A DNA stretch of 64,000 nt from Janibacter terrae NBRC 107853 (GTDB lineage Bacteria > Actinomycetota > Actinomycetes > Actinomycetales > Dermatophilaceae). Shown in pieces: positions 16,447 through 25,395 of this stretch (positions within the stretch are counted from its first letter, which is position 1; every line of letters starts with the position of its first letter). The translations under genes were made by a program, and so were the position numbers. The stretch covers positions 434,001 to 498,000 of the forward strand of contig NZ_BCUV01000007.1 in the NCBI RefSeq assembly GCF_001591405.1, given 5' to 3'. Below the pieces are notes generated by a model. That model did no database searches, was not told where the DNA came from, and saw only the letters and a list, made by a program, of their open reading frames with translations.

Positions 16447-17298
16447 CTATTGGATTCCGACCAAGGGGTGGTCGGACCGTTGCGTAGCGTAGAACGCTTC
16501 CTCGAACTCTGCTGGCGGGACGTCGCCCAGGTAGCCGTGGAGGCGGTCGTGGTTGTGCCAGTGGACCCAGGACAGGGTGGCGAGCTCGACATCCTCGATG
16601 CTCTTCCAGGGCCGTCCCTGGCGTGCGGGGCCGCGGATTAGCTCGGCCTTGTAGTAGCCGTTCACGGTCTCGGCAAGGGCGTTATCGTACGAATCCCCGA
16701 CGGTGCCGATCGAGGGCACCGCACCGATCTCAGCCAGTCGTTCTCCGTAGCGAATCGACGTGAATTGGCTGCCCGCGTCGCTGTGACACCGCAGCCCGTC
16801 GAGCTGGGTGCCGCGTGACCACCTGGCCATCTCGATGGCGTCGAGGACCATCGTGGTCCTCATGTGCGAGGCGACTCGCCACCCGACGATCGTGCGGGAG
16901 TAGGCGTCGATGATGAAGCAGACGTAGGCGACGCCGGCCCAGGTCGGCACGAAGGTCAGATCTGTGACCCACAACTGGTTCGGCGCGGTGGCGGTGAAGT
17001 CGCGGCCCACCAGGTCCGGGTGCCGCGGCATGCCCGGGTCTGGCGTGGTGGTGCGCACCCGCTTGGTGCGCCGCACGCCCTCGATACCCTCGGCGCGCAT
17101 CAGCCGGGCGACCTGGTCGCGGCCGATGTCGTGACCAGAGCGTCGCGCGGCCTTCCAGATCTTCCGTGCCCCGTAGACCCGGTAGTTGGCTTCCCACAGC
17201 TGCCGCACCACCGGGCCCATCACCGCGTCACGTCGGGCACGGGCCGATGGCTGCCGGCTCTTGACCTGGTAGTAGCTGCTGGGGGCCACCTGCAGCAC
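16447..17298 (-). CDS. IS3-family orfB transposase (element B)
   Basis: DDE integrase-core protein: YGARKIWKAARR and IGRDQVARLMR as the HTH_21-like region, then NQLWVTDLTFV (first Asp), CHSDAGSQFTS (second Asp), NALAETVNGYYKAELI (Glu) and WVHWHNHDRLHGYLGDVPP. The frame is open further upstream (AAFIDANRDDVVAGRR), so the natural product is probably an orfA-orfB fusion made by a -1 frameshift near AAGAAG at the orfA end. No lesions seen, so probably functional. Confidence 0.9.
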   Translation of the reverse strand: MLQVAPSSYYQVKSRQPSARARRDAVMGPVVRQLWEANYRVYGARKIWKAARRSGHDIGRDQVARLMRAEGIEGVRRTKRVRTTTPDPGMPRHPDLVGRDFTATAPNQLWVTDLTFVPTWAGVAYVCFIIDAYSRTIVGWRVASHMRTTMVLDAIEMARWSRGTQLDGLRCHSDAGSQFTSIRYGERLAEIGAVPSIGTVGDSYDNALAETVNGYYKAELIRGPARQGRPWKSIEDVELATLSWVHWHNHDRLHGYLGDVPPAEFEEAFYATQRSDHPLVGIQ

Positions 17299-17369
17299 GC
17301 TGCAGATGAGCTCGACCCCCAGCCGCCGACCCGCGACGACGTCGTCGCGGTTGGCGTCGATGAACGCGG

Positions 17370-17714
17370 CTACTTCTTGTGCTGGCGGTCGAGCTCCGCC
17401 CCGAAGAAACTGGCGGCCCTCTTCAAGATCTCGTTGGCCCGCTTGAGCTCACGGTTCTCCTGCTCCAGAGCCTTCATCTTCGCCGCGTCACTGGTACTGA
17501 TGCCCGCGACGTGGCCCTCGTCGATATCAGCTTGACGGACCCAGGACCGCACCGACTCGGTGCCGTACCCCAACTGCTGGGCGACGCGCTGGACCGTGCC
17601 GTGCTCTGTGCCTAGCTCTGCGCGCAGAGTCCTGACCATCCGCACCGCAGCGGCCTTCTCGTCGGGGCTGTAGCGACGCGTGGTCGGCTTCCCCGGGGTG
17701 GTGTCCTTCGGCAT
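17370..17714 (-). CDS. IS3-family orfA (element B)
   Basis: 114 residues from ATG 17714 (an ATG at 17750 is also in frame but overlaps the inverted repeat region). YSPDEKAAAVRMVR and TESVRSWVRQADID form the DNA-binding part; KMKALEQENRELKRANEILKR is the leucine zipper, followed by ASFFGAELDRQHKK. Different in sequence from orfA of element A, so the two IS3 elements are not copies of each other. Confidence 0.88.
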   Translation of the reverse strand: MPKDTTPGKPTTRRYSPDEKAAAVRMVRTLRAELGTEHGTVQRVAQQLGYGTESVRSWVRQADIDEGHVAGISTSDAAKMKALEQENRELKRANEILKRAASFFGAELDRQHKK

Positions 17715-17768
17715 GAGTACATCCTCGTTTCCAAACGATGGAGACTCCAACCAACCCAGTGCGGTTCA

Positions 17769-19810: not shown

Positions 19811-20122
19811 TCATGCGACGGGGGTGGAGGCGTCCGGTCGGTCCGAGTGGTCCTGCTGAGTCATCGCGAACGGCGCGAGGACCTGCATGAGGAAGGCCGC
19901 GCCAGCCGTCGAGATCCGCGGCAGGTCGGGCGACGGGACGGTCGTGAGCACCTCGGCGAGGACAACGTGGTGGATCTCGGCGAGCTCGAGCACGCTCGTC
20001 CCCTCGCCGAGAGCGCGCCGGCCGATGTCGTACGCCTGGGCGAGCGCGGCCTCGTCCTCGTGCGGCAGGTAGCGGAAGAAGGCCACGCGGTAGTCCCGCA
20101 CCAGCGGCTCGCGGTCGCTCAT
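19811..20122 (-). CDS. Stand-alone RsbU N-terminal-like (RsbT-binding) protein
   Basis: 103 residues resembling the N-terminal domain of RsbU (four-helix RsbT-docking domain): YRVAFFRYLPHEDEAALAQAYDIGRRAL, then SVLELAEIHHVVLAEVL and FLMQVLAPFAM match the pattern of that domain. No PP2C phosphatase follows: the stop comes at once. Its ATG overlaps the rsbS stop (ATGA), so it belongs to the stressosome operon. By analogy it would dock on the RsbT domain of the fusion protein encoded at the start of this operon. Domain call is by eye, without a profile search. Confidence 0.65.
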   Translation of the reverse strand: MSDREPLVRDYRVAFFRYLPHEDEAALAQAYDIGRRALGEGTSVLELAEIHHVVLAEVLTTVPSPDLPRISTAGAAFLMQVLAPFAMTQQDHSDRPDASTPVA

Positions 20123-20496
20123 CGCAGCCGGTCCGACCCCTCGGCGAGCCTCGCCAGGCCGTCCTCGAGGTCCAACGCGGTGGTCAGCTGGCCGACACCC
20201 ATGCCGAGCTGGGCCATGGCGTAGGCGACGTCGGGCTGCACCCCCACGACGACGACCCGCGCCCCACGCAGGCGCGCCATCTCGGTGATGTCGCGCAGGG
20301 TCCGGGTGGCGAAGCTGTCGAGGACGTCGAGCGCGGCCACGTCGATGATGACCCCGCTGGCCCGGTGCACGCCGATCTGCCGGACGAGGTCACCGCGGAA
20401 GCGGACCATCTCCGTGTCGTCGAGGGCCGTGTGGATCGACGCGACGAGGGTGCTGCCCTGTCGCAGGATCGACACGAGTGCGGGACCGGTGCTCAC
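20119..20496 (-). CDS. rsbS: Stressosome scaffold STAS protein RsbS
   Basis: 125-residue single STAS domain. The phosphorylation segment IIDVAALDVLDSFATRTL has Ser61 at the position of the conserved RsbS serine, and AYAMAQLGMGVGQL follows as in the family. RsbS with RsbR forms the icosahedral stressosome core that holds RsbT until phosphorylated. GTG 20496 lies 1 nt beyond the rsbR stop; the 3' end overlaps the RsbU-N-like gene by 4 nt. Confidence 0.88.
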   Translation of the reverse strand: MSTGPALVSILRQGSTLVASIHTALDDTEMVRFRGDLVRQIGVHRASGVIIDVAALDVLDSFATRTLRDITEMARLRGARVVVVGVQPDVAYAMAQLGMGVGQLTTALDLEDGLARLAEGSDRLR

Positions 20497-20497
20497 G

Positions 20498-21388
20498 TCA
20501 GGTCGACGGCTCCTTCCGGATCACGGAGTAGCCGAGCAGCCTCTCGGCCTCCTCGAGACCTCCCTGGAGGTCTCCGATGGTGTTCATCTTGCTCAGGTCG
20601 ACGCCGATGGTCACGAGGGTCTGCGCGATCGTCGGTGACAACCCGGTGATGATGACGCTCGCGCCCATCAGACGTGACGCGTCGACGGTCTGCACGAGGT
20701 GGTTGGCGACGGTCTGGTCGACCTCGGGTGCGCCGGTGACGTCCATGACCACGACCTTCGCCCGGTGGGTGCGGATGCCGGCGAGGAGCTGACCGGTGAG
20801 CTGGCGGGCACGGTCGCTGTCGAGGACGCCGATGATCGGCAGGACGAGCAGCCGCTCGCGCACCGGCAGCACGGGTGTCGACAGCTCGCGGATCGAGTCC
20901 TGCTGCTGACGGATCACCCGCTCCCGCTCGTCGACGAAGCTCACGGCGACGGTGTTGGCGATCCGGTTGGCCGCGGGCTCGTACGCGTCGAGCACCTGGT
21001 TGAGCAGCCGGAAGTCGCCGTCGTACTTCTCGAAGAGCGAGCGGGCGAGGACGTCGCGCAGCAGGAGCACGATGCCGACGACCTCGTGGGTCTCCACGCC
21101 CCGGGGGATGATCCGCTCGGAGAGGTCACGGGCGTAGTGCTGCAGCGCCTCGACGCTGCCGGTCTCGAGGACCTCGACGTAGTTGTCGTAGACGGCGGTC
21201 GTCTCGGCCACCATCTCCTGCGGGGTCATCGCCTCGAGGAGGTGCGCGTCGCGGATGCGCGACGCCCACTCCTCGCTCAGCCGGGCGCGGTGCTCGCGCA
21301 GGTGCGCGACGAGCTGCGGCAGCAGTTGGTCGGCCCTCGTGAGGTCCGGTTCGTACCCGTCCTGCATCTCCTCGGGTGCCATCGTCAT
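20498..21388 (-). CDS. rsbR: Stressosome sensor protein RsbR
   Basis: 296 residues: an N-terminal sensory domain (about 15-165, helical, RsbR_N-like non-haem globin style) and a C-terminal STAS domain (about 170-290). In the STAS part, VTGAPEVDQTVANHLVQTVDA has Gln225-Thr226 where B. subtilis RsbRA has its first phospho-Thr, while the second site is kept (SPTIAQTLV, Thr257). The start ATG 21388 overlaps the stop of the sigma/RsbT fusion gene and has AGAAGGG before it, so the sensor is translated coupled to its kinase. Confidence 0.88.
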   Translation of the reverse strand: MTMAPEEMQDGYEPDLTRADQLLPQLVAHLREHRARLSEEWASRIRDAHLLEAMTPQEMVAETTAVYDNYVEVLETGSVEALQHYARDLSERIIPRGVETHEVVGIVLLLRDVLARSLFEKYDGDFRLLNQVLDAYEPAANRIANTVAVSFVDERERVIRQQQDSIRELSTPVLPVRERLLVLPIIGVLDSDRARQLTGQLLAGIRTHRAKVVVMDVTGAPEVDQTVANHLVQTVDASRLMGASVIITGLSPTIAQTLVTIGVDLSKMNTIGDLQGGLEEAERLLGYSVIRKEPST

Positions 21389-22464
21389 CCCTTCTCGATC
21401 CACTTGGTCATCGTCACGGTGGTGCCCCTGCCGATCTCGGTCTCGACGACGAGCTCGTCCATGAGGCGGCGGGCCCCTGGCAGCCCGAGCCCGAGCCCCT
21501 CGTCGGTGCTGTAGCCGTCCTGCATCGCCCGCTCGACGTCCGGGATCCCCGGACCGGTGTCACGGGCCACCACGCGGATGCCGGGACGAGGACTGGTGAG
21601 CAGCTGCACCCGGACCTCTCCGCTGCCCGCGAAGCGCACGACATTGCGGGTGATCTCGGAGACCGCGGTGGCGAGGAGGGTGAGGTCCACGCCGGTGAAG
21701 CCGGCCCGGGCCGCCAGCTCGCGGGCGGCCTGACGGGCCGTGACGATGTCAGGGTCGCCCGAGATCGGCACATGGGCCTCGTCGGGGCGCTCCGGCCCGC
21801 GCTGGCGCAGGGGCGCACCCAGCCGTTCGCACAGCTCGCACTCGAGGAGGTGGCGTGCGGCGTCGAGCTCCTCCTGGCGGCGGCGGTCGGAGCTGGAGAG
21901 GGCGACGAGGACCGGCCGGCATCGGTCGGTGGGCGGCTCGACGTCGTCGAGGGCGAGGAGGTACTCCACCCGCAGGCGCGCGCGGGTGCGCTTGAGCTGG
22001 GCGGCGACCGCACCGGCGGTCGAGCCCGTGCCCCGGGCGAGCGAGCGGGTGTCCTCGCCGGAGACCTCGTGCGCGAGGAGCAGCTGGCGCTCGCGCTCGG
22101 TGAGCCGTCCGAGCGCCGTCGACATCGCGTCCGACTGCTCCTGGGCGACGAGGAGCTCGTCGGCGGCGTCGGGCACGCTGGGGTCGAAGAGCCGGTGCGC
22201 GTTGCGGTCGGCCCGCGCCCCCTGCCGCCACATCGAGGCGACGACGTTGCGCGCGGTGGTGATCGCGTAGGGCTCGAGCATCCCGGGCTCGATCCGATGA
22301 CGCGCCGCGAGCACCCGGACGATCGTCTCCTGGACGAGGTCCTCCGCGGAGGGGTGGTTGCCCACCCGGGCCCCGACGACACGGCGCAGCACAGGGACGA
22401 GGGCCTCGACATCTTCGTCGGTTGGCTCCTCGGGACCGTCCACACGGACCGAACTCACGAGCAT
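21385..22464 (-). CDS. Fusion protein: ECF-sigma-like regions 2 and 4, Cys/His zinc motif, and RsbT-type kinase
   Basis: 359 residues from ATG 22464. Residues about 22-90 resemble sigma region 2 (SAEDLVQETIVRVL, then YAITTARNVVAS); about 113-170 resemble region 4 (ALGRLTERERQLLLAHEVSGEDTRSLA...AVAAQLKRTRARLR). Then Cys182, His205, Cys209 and Cys212 (RHLLECELC) give an anti-sigma-type HxxxCxxC site. The C-terminal part (235-359) is an RsbT/HATPase kinase: N box SEITRNVVRF (270-278), DTGPGI (302-307), GLGLGLPGARRLMDE (323-337). First gene of an operon with rsbR, rsbS and an RsbU-N-like gene. Inference: the stressosome binds and releases a promoter-recognition protein directly. Confidence 0.8.
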   Translation of the reverse strand: MLVSSVRVDGPEEPTDEDVEALVPVLRRVVGARVGNHPSAEDLVQETIVRVLAARHRIEPGMLEPYAITTARNVVASMWRQGARADRNAHRLFDPSVPDAADELLVAQEQSDAMSTALGRLTERERQLLLAHEVSGEDTRSLARGTGSTAGAVAAQLKRTRARLRVEYLLALDDVEPPTDRCRPVLVALSSSDRRRQEELDAARHLLECELCERLGAPLRQRGPERPDEAHVPISGDPDIVTARQAARELAARAGFTGVDLTLLATAVSEITRNVVRFAGSGEVRVQLLTSPRPGIRVVARDTGPGIPDVERAMQDGYSTDEGLGLGLPGARRLMDELVVETEIGRGTTVTMTKWIEKG

Positions 22465-22590
22465 GACGGTACGCCCGACGGGGATGAATTGGAGGCGGCG
22501 CGCGCGGTGGCCACCCTCGCCCCGCCGACGGCCGGCGGGCGAGCGGCCGGTAAACTGGCCCCTCGTCCCCGGACCCGTCGAGAGGACCTC

Positions 22591-25395
22591 GTGACCCTGC
22601 TGCTGCTTGCCCACTTCGTGGCGGCCGCAGCTGCGCCCGGGCTCACCAAGTTGCTCGACCGACGCTCCTTCCTCGTGCTGGCGCTCGTCCCGGCGGCGAC
22701 CTTCTGCTGGTTGCTCGCGCAGACCGCGAGGATCACCGACGGGCACCCGGTCGTCGAGCACGTCTCCTGGGTCCCGACCCTCGGCATGGACTTCGACCTG
22801 CGGCTGGGCACCCTGCAGTGGCTGCTCGGTCTGCTGGTGAGCGGCGTCGGCGCCCTGGCGCTGGTCTACTGCGCCTGGTACTTCCGGCGGGGCGACCCCA
22901 GCCTGTGGCGCTTCACCGGGGTGTTCACCGCCTTCGCCGGCGCGATGCTCGGGCTCGTCCTCGCCGACAACCTGCTCGCGCTCTACGTCTTCTGGGAGCT
23001 GACGACGGTCTTCTCCTACACGCTCATCGGGCACAACCCGGTGCGCTCGGCCAACCGCCGCGCCGCGATGCAGGCCCTGCTCGTCACGACCTTCGGCGGG
23101 CTCGCGATGCTCGTCGGCACCGTGATCATCGGCCAGACCTCGAGCTACACGATCAGCGAGGTCCTCGTCTCGCCGCCCCCGGCGGGGACGCTCACGACCA
23201 CCGCCGCACTCCTCATGCTCCTCGGCGCGCTCACCAAGTCCGCGCAGATCCCCTTCCACTTCTGGCTGCCCGGCGCCATGGCCGCCCCGACGCCCGTGAG
23301 CGCGTACCTGCACGCCGCGTCGATGGTCAAGGCGGGCATCTACCTCATCCTGCTGCTCGAGCCGATCTTCGCCGACGCCCCCGGCTGGCGGCCGGTCCTG
23401 GTCGTCCTCGGCCTGTGGACGATGGTCCTCGGCGGCTGGCGTGCCCTGCGCCAGGACGACATCAAGCTCCTGCTCGCCTACGGCACCGTGAGCCAGCTCG
23501 GGTTCATGACCGTGCTCTCGGGCATCGGCACCAAGTCCGCCGGCCTCGCCGCCCTGGCCCTCGTGCTGTCCCACGCGCTCTTCAAGTCGGTCCTCTTCTT
23601 CACCGTCGGCATCATCGACAAGGGCACGGGCACCCGTGACCTCACCCAGCTGAACGGCCTCGCGCGCAGCGCCCCGGTCCTCGCGGTCGCGGCCACGCTC
23701 TCGGCGGCCTCGATGGCCGGCCTGCCACCCCTCGTCGGCTTCGTCGCCAAGGAGTCGGCGCTCACCGCGGCCATCGAGTCCGCACACGGCCCCCTGTCGA
23801 CGACGGCGGGGTGGCTGACCGTCGTGGGCCTCGTCGCCGGCTCGACGCTCACGGTGGCCTACTCCGCGCGCTTCGTCTGGGGTGCCTTCGTGACGAAGGG
23901 GGCATCCCGCGCCGCGCCGAGCCCCACCCCCTTCGCCGCGCCCAGGGCCCTGCTCATCGCCCCGGCCCTGCTCTCCCTGACGACGCTCGCGTCGGGGTTC
24001 TTCGGCGACCCGCTCACCGAGCTCTTCCAGCCCTACGCGACGACCCTGCCGGGCGCGGAGCCGGAGCACCTGGCGCTCTGGCACGGGCTGACGCCGGCCC
24101 TCGGCCTGTCCCTGCTCGCGATCACGAGCGGCCTGGCCCTCTTCGCGGTCCGCGGGCCCTTCGCGGAGCTCCAGGGGCGGGTGCCGCAGGTCGTCGACGC
24201 CGAGCGGGTCTACCAGCGGTTCATGCGGGCGCTGGACCGCTTCGCCGTCGAGGTCACCGCGCTGTCGCAGGGCGGCTCCCTGCCGACCTACCTCGGCACG
24301 ATCTTCCTCGTCGTCATCCTGCTGCCCGGCGTCGTCGCCACCTCGGCGCTCCCGGGGTCGCAGGTGCGGCTGTGGGACACCCCCAGCCAGGCGGCCGTCG
24401 GCCTCTTCGTCATCGTCTCGGCGATCCTGTCGATCCGAGGCCGCAACCGGCTGCAGTCGGTGATGTTCGTCGGCCTGACCGGCTACGGCCTCGCGCTCCT
24501 CTTCCACCTGCACGGCGCGCCCGACCTCGCCCTGACCCAGGTGCTCGTGGAGACCTTCTCGCTCGTGCTCTTCGTCCTCGTGCTGCGCAAGCTGCCCCAG
24601 GACTTCCGCCGCCGCCCACGCACGCACCGCCGCCACTGGAAGGTCGCACTCTCCGGCGCCATCGGCCTGGCGATCTCGGCGCTCGTCGTCGCCGCCGCCA
24701 ACGCACGCATCCACGAGCCGATCTCGCGCGCCTTCCCCCGGGAGGCCTACGACTTCGGCCACGGCCGCAATGTCGTCAACGTGACGCTCGTCGACATCCG
24801 CGCCTGGGACACCCTGGGTGAGATCAGCGTCCTCGTCGCCGCCGCGACCGGCATCGCCTCCCTCGTCTTCGTGCGGACCCAGGACGTCGATCGCTCCTGG
24901 ACCCGCCGCCGCAACCAGGGGCAAATCACGCCGCTGGCCCGCGAGCGCCGCTCGGTCATCCTCGAGACCGCGACCCGCCTCGTCTTCCACGTCATGCTCG
25001 CGCTGTCGGTCTACCTGCTCTTCTCCGGCCACAACCAGGTCGGTGGCGGCTTCAGCGGCGGCCTCGTGTTCGGTCTGGCCCTGCTGGTGCGCTACCTCGC
25101 CGGCGGCCGGGAGGAGCTGGACCGGGCCGCGCCGGTGAGCGCCGGCCTCGTCCTCGGGGCGGGCCTCGTCGTCTCCGCGGTGTCGGCCCTGGCGCCGCTC
25201 GCCTTCGGCGGCACCGTCCTGCAGTCGGCGGTCCTCGAGGTCGACCTGCCGATCTGGGGCCACGTGAAGATCGTCAGCGCGCTCGGCTTCGACATCGGCG
25301 TCTACCTCATCGTCATCGGCCTCGCCCTCGACGTCGTGCGCTCCCTCGGCGCCGGCATCGACCGCCAGTCCGAGGAAGAGGAGGCCACCGCATGA
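22591..25395 (+). CDS. mrpA: Mrp Na+/H+ antiporter subunit A with fused B (MrpAB)
   Basis: 934-residue membrane protein of the cation/proton antiporter complex. The N-terminal two thirds are ND5-like (SKxxQIPFHFWLPGAM region, VSQLGFMTVLSGIGTKSAGLAA), followed by the MrpA-specific domain with HGAPDLALTQVLVETFSLVLFVLVLRKLP, and a C-terminal MrpB-type domain (ETATRLVFHVMLALSVYLLFSGHNQVGGGFSGGL). GTG 22591 with AGAGGA upstream is chosen; the frame is open for another 1.2 kb only as antisense of the rsb genes. Divergent from the stressosome operon. mrpC overlaps by 4 nt. Confidence 0.93.
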   Translation: MTLLLLAHFVAAAAAPGLTKLLDRRSFLVLALVPAATFCWLLAQTARITDGHPVVEHVSWVPTLGMDFDLRLGTLQWLLGLLVSGVGALALVYCAWYFRRGDPSLWRFTGVFTAFAGAMLGLVLADNLLALYVFWELTTVFSYTLIGHNPVRSANRRAAMQALLVTTFGGLAMLVGTVIIGQTSSYTISEVLVSPPPAGTLTTTAALLMLLGALTKSAQIPFHFWLPGAMAAPTPVSAYLHAASMVKAGIYLILLLEPIFADAPGWRPVLVVLGLWTMVLGGWRALRQDDIKLLLAYGTVSQLGFMTVLSGIGTKSAGLAALALVLSHALFKSVLFFTVGIIDKGTGTRDLTQLNGLARSAPVLAVAATLSAASMAGLPPLVGFVAKESALTAAIESAHGPLSTTAGWLTVVGLVAGSTLTVAYSARFVWGAFVTKGASRAAPSPTPFAAPRALLIAPALLSLTTLASGFFGDPLTELFQPYATTLPGAEPEHLALWHGLTPALGLSLLAITSGLALFAVRGPFAELQGRVPQVVDAERVYQRFMRALDRFAVEVTALSQGGSLPTYLGTIFLVVILLPGVVATSALPGSQVRLWDTPSQAAVGLFVIVSAILSIRGRNRLQSVMFVGLTGYGLALLFHLHGAPDLALTQVLVETFSLVLFVLVLRKLPQDFRRRPRTHRRHWKVALSGAIGLAISALVVAAANARIHEPISRAFPREAYDFGHGRNVVNVTLVDIRAWDTLGEISVLVAAATGIASLVFVRTQDVDRSWTRRRNQGQITPLARERRSVILETATRLVFHVMLALSVYLLFSGHNQVGGGFSGGLVFGLALLVRYLAGGREELDRAAPVSAGLVLGAGLVVSAVSALAPLAFGGTVLQSAVLEVDLPIWGHVKIVSALGFDIGVYLIVIGLALDVVRSLGAGIDRQSEEEEATA

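Follow-up and report, generated by a model that had tools for sequence, protein, structure and literature searches.

Introduction

As set out in the available text of the papers cited here, RsbR and RsbS hold the switch kinase RsbT, which upon stress phosphorylates both of them and then departs to bind an effector through the latter's RsbU_N domain (PMC12143880, PMC9237108). The effector proteins that carry this domain include, in the accessible part of one of these papers, the RsbU phosphatase, histidine kinases, and GGDEF enzymes (PMC12143880), and the accessible part of the other presents the downstream modules of the described stressosome systems as separate proteins (PMC9237108). A review describes the extracytoplasmic function (ECF) groups ECF48, ECF52, and ECF53, of which SCO4117 is an example, as sigma factors whose chain also includes a zinc anti-sigma module and membrane helices (PMC8999054). 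Here we describe a gene from Janibacter terrae NBRC 107853 that combines parts of both kinds. It lies in a stretch of 64,000 nucleotides (contig NZ_BCUV01000007.1, positions 434,001 to 498,000), which we call the window and whose numbering is used throughout. On the minus strand at 21385-22464, one gene joins regions 2 and 4 of an ECF sigma factor to a zinc anti-sigma-like module and an RsbT-type kinase domain; rsbR, rsbS, and an RsbU_N gene follow it in the same operon. Comparison with other genomes supports the view that the molecule held by this stressosome would carry promoter-recognition regions, and we lean toward a reading in which the stressosome directly controls an ECF sigma factor, the effector having moved from RsbU onto RsbT.

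Results and Discussion

Sigma Regions, a Zinc Module, and an RsbT-Type Kinase Domain in One Chain

The complement of 21385-22464 reads as an uninterrupted frame of 359 residues, and the plus strand at the same place holds an unrelated frame. The original prediction, made from the letters of the window, had proposed one frame here; its 359 unbroken residues stand, its strand, which had been left unstated, is minus, and its start probably lies two codons later than annotated. A Pfam search of the 359-residue protein gave three matches, all above the gathering cut-off: Sigma70_r2 at residues 19-84 (E 5.5e-12), Sigma70_r4_2 at 113-164 (1.9e-6), and HATPase_c_2 at 240-354 (2.7e-14). Both predicted sigma regions are therefore recovered by profile search, and Sigma70_r3 is absent from the Pfam result, as in an ECF (group 4) sigma factor. 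On the minus strand, region 2 (residues 19-90) spans 22195-22410, region 4 (residues 113-172) spans 21949-22128, the zinc module (residues 173-222, C-x22-H-x3-C-x2-C, recognized by ligand conservation) spans 21799-21948, and the RsbT-type kinase domain (residues 236-359) spans 21388-21759.

Thirty fused sequences were aligned, of which the 29 from outside the window, with two close pairs among them, are 51-72% identical to the window protein. Mean pairwise identity in this alignment is 0.66 for sigma region 2, 0.67 for region 4, 0.68 for the zinc module, and 0.70 for the RsbT domain, and it is low in the linkers (0.39 and 0.36), the linker at 223-235 being the least conserved inter-domain stretch with the lower of these values. 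Within region 2.2, A40, D42, V44, Q45, and E46 are invariant (30/30) and position 41 is Glu or Asp (Asp in 8/30); the acidic motif of this region, associated with binding of core RNA polymerase, is present in all 30. R159, R161, and R165 of region 4 are invariant in the alignment, and so, in 30/30, are N274, D302, G304, G306, G325, G327, T348, and T349 of the RsbT domain, which together with the profile match bear out the complete RsbT/HATPase domain that had been predicted. Cys182, His205, Cys209, and Cys212 are likewise invariant in 30/30, and C-x22-H-x3-C-x2-C is kept in 42/42 modules, 31 from fused proteins and 11 from the membrane-anchored relatives discussed below; 13 of the 42 were excised with a pattern that itself contains the ligands, and all 13 loci tried fitted that pattern. 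The motif of zinc anti-sigma (ZAS) domains is H-x3-C-x2-C with an upstream Cys or His ligand.

Occurrence of the Fusion

A survey of other genomes, a check that had been suggested with the original prediction, recovered the fusion beside rsbR and rsbS repeatedly. In genome sets that overlap with one another, the full-length fusion was found in 5/98 relatives (the window counted), in 26/186 genomes of the window's family (where a 27th matched by the RsbT part only), in 0/15 other genomes of the window's genus, in 5/197 genomes of a second family (that of genome G299, where a sixth copy is broken into two frames in a metagenome-assembled genome, MAG), in 4/394 genomes across the class, in 4/396 across the phylum, two of these belonging to another class, and in 2/66 genomes of that other actinobacterial class. 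Seven carriers are named among the 74 matches listed: two Humibacillus xanthopallidus, Knoellia remsis (Knoellia belongs to the Intrasporangiaceae), a Tetrasphaera MAG, two Nocardioidaceae MAGs, and a Nocardioides MAG. A search of plasmids gave no full-length copy and one Deinococcus match to the RsbT part. At locus L178 (1197-2283, MAG G749) the fusion frame is broken between query residues 97 and 102, through error or decay.

The Operon and Its Stressosome Genes

As had been predicted, the fusion gene is the first of a minus-strand operon. It is followed by an rsbR-like gene (20498-21388; Pfam STAS E 1.2e-11, with an RsbRD_N-like N-terminus at 24.2 bits against a cut-off of 24.3), an rsbS-like gene (20119-20496; STAS E 4.9e-11, with the phosphosite serine kept in a DSF motif), and a gene for a free RsbU_N domain of 103 residues (19811-20122; Pfam RsbU_N E 1.1e-11), which has neither a phosphatase nor a coiled-coil linker. 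The junctions are an ATGA overlap between fusion and rsbR, a 1-nt gap between rsbR and rsbS, and an ATGA overlap between rsbS and RsbU_N. Compared with PDB sequences, the window RsbR and RsbS have stressosome proteins as their nearest solved chains, and the window RsbU_N aligns with residues 3-88 of RsbU (E 0.0016). The genes of a stressosome core, with STAS domains in RsbR and RsbS and the phosphoserine site of RsbS, are present; a stressosome is further characterized by assembly into a megadalton particle.

The order fusion-rsbR-rsbS-RsbU_N is found in all 26 family genomes with the fusion, in six of which the retrieved sequence stops inside RsbU_N, and also in both genomes of the other class and in one phage-labelled record; at L035 and L138 the contig stops before RsbU_N. 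The phage-labelled record, L249 (MT836994.1, 1-2827), was deposited as "Bacteriophage sp." from human feces, carries the same four-gene operon, and is probably mislabelled bacterial DNA. A second RsbS-like gene lies near the fusion operon at L035 (3-539) and L038 (9211-9750).

The window genome has a single RsbU_N, that of the fusion operon, and a single SpoIIE phosphatase, on another contig, within whose 3.5-kb locus no rsb gene was recognized by eye. With no second RsbU_N and the only SpoIIE protein on the other contig, we rejected the idea that the window genome also runs a classical RsbU cascade; no RsbU-type protein able to take the RsbT signal was found there.

Changes That Travel with the Fusion

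RsbU_N stands alone in the fused loci: in 27/27 complete ones the chain stops within 30 residues past the domain match, and the coiled-coil linker after it is missing. The comparison is limited to eight loci with a free RsbT and wider flanks, the flanks of the remaining ones being too short; seven have RsbU_N and one (L240) has none in 19 kb. These seven encode eight RsbU_N proteins (that of L235 scoring under its Pfam cut-off), of which seven carry a further signaling or output domain (histidine kinase in two, HD in one, HATPase_c_2 in one, SpoIIE phosphatase, PP2C, in three) and one carries GAF. One of the free-RsbT loci, L237 (1728-8406), encodes three RsbR-like proteins together with RsbS and RsbT, as well as an RsbU_N protein with an HD domain and another with an HATPase domain.

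A second change is seen in RsbR, whose phosphothreonine sites in B. subtilis are T171 and T205. The first site is occupied in 31/31 fused loci by Glu (17), Gln (7), Val (3), Ala (3), or His (1), and six further fused loci have Glu, so that the site is lost in 37/37 and is glutamate in 23/37. It is Ser or Thr in 28/30 distinct free-RsbT loci, the exceptions being Gln in L121 and Lys in L241; 31 such loci were listed, L113 and L248 being one locus, L123 and L239 yielded no RsbR, and RsbS rows inside the RsbR listing (one fused, seven other) were removed by eye. The difference (0/31 versus 28/30) gives a Fisher p of 2e-15 for rows of common ancestry. At the second RsbR site all RsbR listed have Thr, those of 31/31 fused loci among them, and all RsbS listed, fused loci included, keep the serine. 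RsbR of the fused loci therefore retains one of the two phosphothreonine sites, and its loss of the first, like the loss of the RsbU effector, co-varies with the fusion.

Ancestry of the Two Halves

The RsbT domain of the fusion compares with free RsbT encoded beside rsbR and rsbS at E values down to 1e-59, and with SpoIIAB or RsbW at 5e-10 to 6e-6, the databases of the two comparisons being different. NCBIfam lists spIIAB and RsbW for this domain, both far under the cut-off, and it carries a GLGLGLPGARRLMDE stretch that we take to be RsbT-like. It is a GHKL domain of the RsbT type whose ATP-binding residues are intact, and it differs from a stand-alone activator of an RsbU_N-linked effector in being fused and in having, as the only RsbU_N of the genome, one without an effector. 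In a tree of 71 RsbT rows, which excludes L222 and L223 (the two fused loci of the other class) and has no RsbW or SpoIIAB row, and which for want of such rows does not separate RsbT from those families, the 30 fused sequences group with two orphan RsbT (L159, L160) at 84/80. Three changes are required by parsimony on this tree, and a single clade of the 30 is not rejected by an approximately unbiased (AU) test (p 0.138). The orphans, at 8234-8770 of L159 and 8449-8913 of L160, have no sigma part, no rsbR or rsbS was found in the 18-kb stretch, and they are likely relics. Two short "Listeria phage" records (OR849442.1, OR847461.1) contain an RsbT-like stretch with 42.8% identity over residues 223-356 and are probably host DNA.

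Among the close relatives of the sigma-zinc half (residues about 9-224; best E value 1.6e-79) are proteins that run on past it into a hydrophobic segment followed by an outer domain. In the membrane-anchored relatives L224-L230 the tails past the zinc module share such a domain, which bears an ADEGFW-like motif and has no Pfam match above the cut-off. The peak hydropathy over 19 residues ranges from 0.92 to 1.60 among the 30 fused proteins, the window protein reaching 1.29, whereas the tails of the 11 anchored relatives reach 1.68-2.35; no transmembrane helix like that of the anchored proteins is thus indicated after the zinc module of the fused ones. In a sigma tree of 84 sequences, 32 fused and 11 anchored sequences group together (90/99) to the exclusion of the 41 other ECF sigma factors included; three of the fused rows branch on their own. 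As judged from these comparisons, the sigma-zinc half shares common ancestry with membrane-anchored ECF sigma/anti-sigma-like proteins. We infer that the anchored form is the older one because the anchored relatives resemble the known ECF48, ECF52, and ECF53 groups.

Predicted Structure

AlphaFold2, run on the fusion with the 30-row alignment, gave a mean predicted local distance difference test (pLDDT) score of 87.1, module blocks at 91-95, and a predicted template modeling (pTM) score of 0.63. In this model of the fusion alone, a check that had been suggested with the original prediction, sigma regions 2 and 4, a four-helix zinc module, and an RsbT-type fold are all predicted with confidence. 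The best Foldseek matches of the model are SpoIIAB and RsbW (target TM 0.74-0.87), and it also matches mycobacterial SigE, SigH, and SigL.

Start Codon, Promoter, and Surroundings

The annotated start of the fusion gene is ATG at 22464, and GTG at 22458, which would give 357 residues, is the more likely true start, two codons after it. A TANNNT motif ends 6-7 nt ahead of the assigned start in 24/30 loci, and at most once in any 2-nt window at 9-53 nt upstream; the assigned start is the ATG or GTG closest to 24 codons ahead of a conserved anchor, a rule chosen after motif-guided starts had been set in 25/29 loci, so that the test is not fully independent. Such a layout of TANNNT and start is that of leaderless transcripts. 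The window carries TACCGT (22466-22471, minus strand), the predicted -10 box of a leaderless promoter, which ends 1 nt before ATG 22464 and 7 nt before GTG 22458; GTG 22458 is preferred because only this codon has the 6-7 nt spacing. CG precedes TANNNT in 9/13 fusion genes and in 6/43 other leaderless-type starts (hand tally; Fisher p 0.0003, the rows being related), and a fusion-gene -10 box preceded by CG resembles an ECF -10.

As judged by eye, the fusion gene is divergent (22472-22593) from a large plus-strand frame taken as part of an Mrp/Mnh-type antiporter operon, and minus-strand frames at 16447-17750 resemble an IS3-type transposase pair. PADLOC gave no match.

A Proposed Route from Stressosome to Promoter

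In the mechanism that we propose, the RsbT domain, its kinase fold kept, would dock the fusion chain onto the RsbR/RsbS core while the zinc module clamps the sigma regions in cis. Upon stress the RsbT domain would phosphorylate RsbS and the remaining RsbR threonine and then quit the core. The freed chain would meet the free, effector-less RsbU_N, a domain that elsewhere recruits RsbT to the effector, and RsbU_N might then keep the chain off the core, open the zinc clamp, or do both, allowing the sigma regions to reach RNA polymerase; this last step is the weakest part of the proposal. The stressosome would thereby fill the position that the membrane anchor has in the relatives, with the effector on RsbT and not on RsbU. 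To the more specific picture, in which the released switch kinase is itself the sigma factor, RsbU_N is its effector-less partner, and the first RsbR phosphosite is fixed, mostly as a phosphate-mimicking glutamate, we would give an even chance. The original prediction had the cascade collapsing to one step; RsbT does carry the sigma factor, and the picture is too simple in that the zinc module and RsbU_N remain and the first RsbR phosphosite is lost. The in-cis zinc module and the conserved free RsbU_N are likely to be further switches. Sigma activity, inhibition in cis, sequestration by docking, release, and the role of RsbU_N are all put forward here by inference.

Several observations weigh against this reading. 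Pfam names no zf-HC2 in the zinc module, whose four ligands stand as originally predicted, and the best PDB profile match of the module, among 177,635 PDB sequences, is weak (3hug_B, presumably RslA bound to SigL, E 0.19). The two sigma regions of the AlphaFold2 model are not jointly superposable on RNA polymerase-bound sigma factors (root-mean-square deviation 9.6-12.7 Å), and with its pTM score the model does not settle how the parts dock. In the sigma tree the fused sequences are not one clade and L222 and L223 fall among the anchored ones (89/98), for which reasons that tree gives no direction between anchored first and fused first. By-eye inspection found no conserved ECF-type -35 upstream of the fusion genes, and their -10 box looks like that of a housekeeping leaderless promoter; with no such -35 seen and the rows related, we do not conclude ECF autoregulation. 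No target promoter or regulon of the fused sigma factor was found, no RsbX gene was seen by eye in the window operon, and the window genome has two sigma factors with region 3, that is, a second one. The correlations of the fusion with RsbU_N and with the phosphosite may also stem from few evolutionary events.

Alternative Explanations

If the RsbT domain merely anchored the chain, a stress-triggered cut in the 223-235 linker or the zinc module could free the sigma factor. That the sigma-zinc half is related to membrane-anchored proteins speaks for such proteolytic release, as does the poor conservation of that linker, and the accessible text of a review expects proteolysis for the ECF48, ECF52, and ECF53 membrane proteins (PMC8999054); mere anchoring, however, would not need the invariant ATP-binding residues of RsbT or the RsbS phosphoserine found in every fused locus examined, and we regard this route as unlikely. 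The ATPase domain might instead act in cis as an RsbW-type anti-sigma kinase on the fused sigma factor, with RsbS and RsbR as antagonists. That SpoIIAB and RsbW are the best fold and PDB sequence matches, and that NCBIfam lists them below its cut-off, speaks for this switch, but the domain scores far better against free RsbT (with the difference in databases given above) and its partners are RsbR and RsbS, not RsbV, which makes it improbable.

A sub-threshold Pfam match to PhyR_sigma2 (17.2 bits against 27) raises the idea of a sigma mimic, whose sigma-like part would titrate a separate anti-sigma factor as PhyR does NepR. Both sigma regions nevertheless score above gathering, their core-binding and helix-turn-helix residues are conserved, and the chain already contains an anti-sigma-like module, so that we hold a mimic to be very improbable. 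A chance or erroneous joining of two genes by sequencing or assembly, which the original prediction had named as its possible undoing and for which the frame split in two in MAG G749 might be cited, is practically negligible: the fusion is unbroken in 30 aligned sequences, 29 of them from outside the window, which come from many genera, and two genomes of another class have it unbroken as well; the artefact was rejected on this basis.

Comparison with Known Systems

In the literature searched, with subscription papers and the ECF classification paper outside it, no RsbT-sigma factor fusion is described, in agreement with the original prediction; the parts appear known and the wiring undescribed in that literature. 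Two regulatory families usually handled apart meet in the fusion: stressosomes, and ECF sigma factors that have an anti-sigma module in cis. If the proposal is true, promoter recognition would lie one dissociation step from stress sensing, transcription could serve as a direct readout of how RsbT release is coupled to output in a system of four genes, and the fused loci would offer a natural variant that lacks the first RsbR phosphosite.

The alphaproteobacterial EcfG-NepR-PhyR system is also a stress switch on an ECF-type sigma factor and combines a sigma-like fold and a signaling domain in one chain, PhyR; unlike the fusion, PhyR is, in the available text of the papers cited, a sigma mimic with a receiver domain and without STAS or RsbT parts (PMC8999054, PMC8103513). 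With ECF48, ECF52, and ECF53 as reviewed (PMC8999054), the fusion shares sigma regions 2 and 4 followed by a zinc module in one chain, and its sigma-zinc half has membrane-anchored relatives, but RsbT stands in place of the membrane helix and outer domain. The window RsbU_N belongs to the same RsbT-binding four-helix family (Pfam RsbU_N) as the RsbU_N-effector proteins (PMC12143880), and differs from them in standing alone and ending ahead of the coiled-coil linker. Like the RsbRST/RsbU/RsbV/RsbW/SigB pathway of Bacillus and Listeria and the rsbRSTX systems, the operon has STAS proteins RsbR and RsbS, the RsbS serine, the second RsbR threonine, an RsbT-type kinase, and an adjacent RsbU_N. Unlike these systems, the four-gene operon has no RsbX, RsbV, or RsbW, its RsbT is fused to an ECF sigma factor, its RsbU_N has no output, and its first RsbR phosphosite is lost. 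Described stressosome pathways reach transcription via several proteins or use other outputs; here the messenger seems tied straight to the sigma factor.

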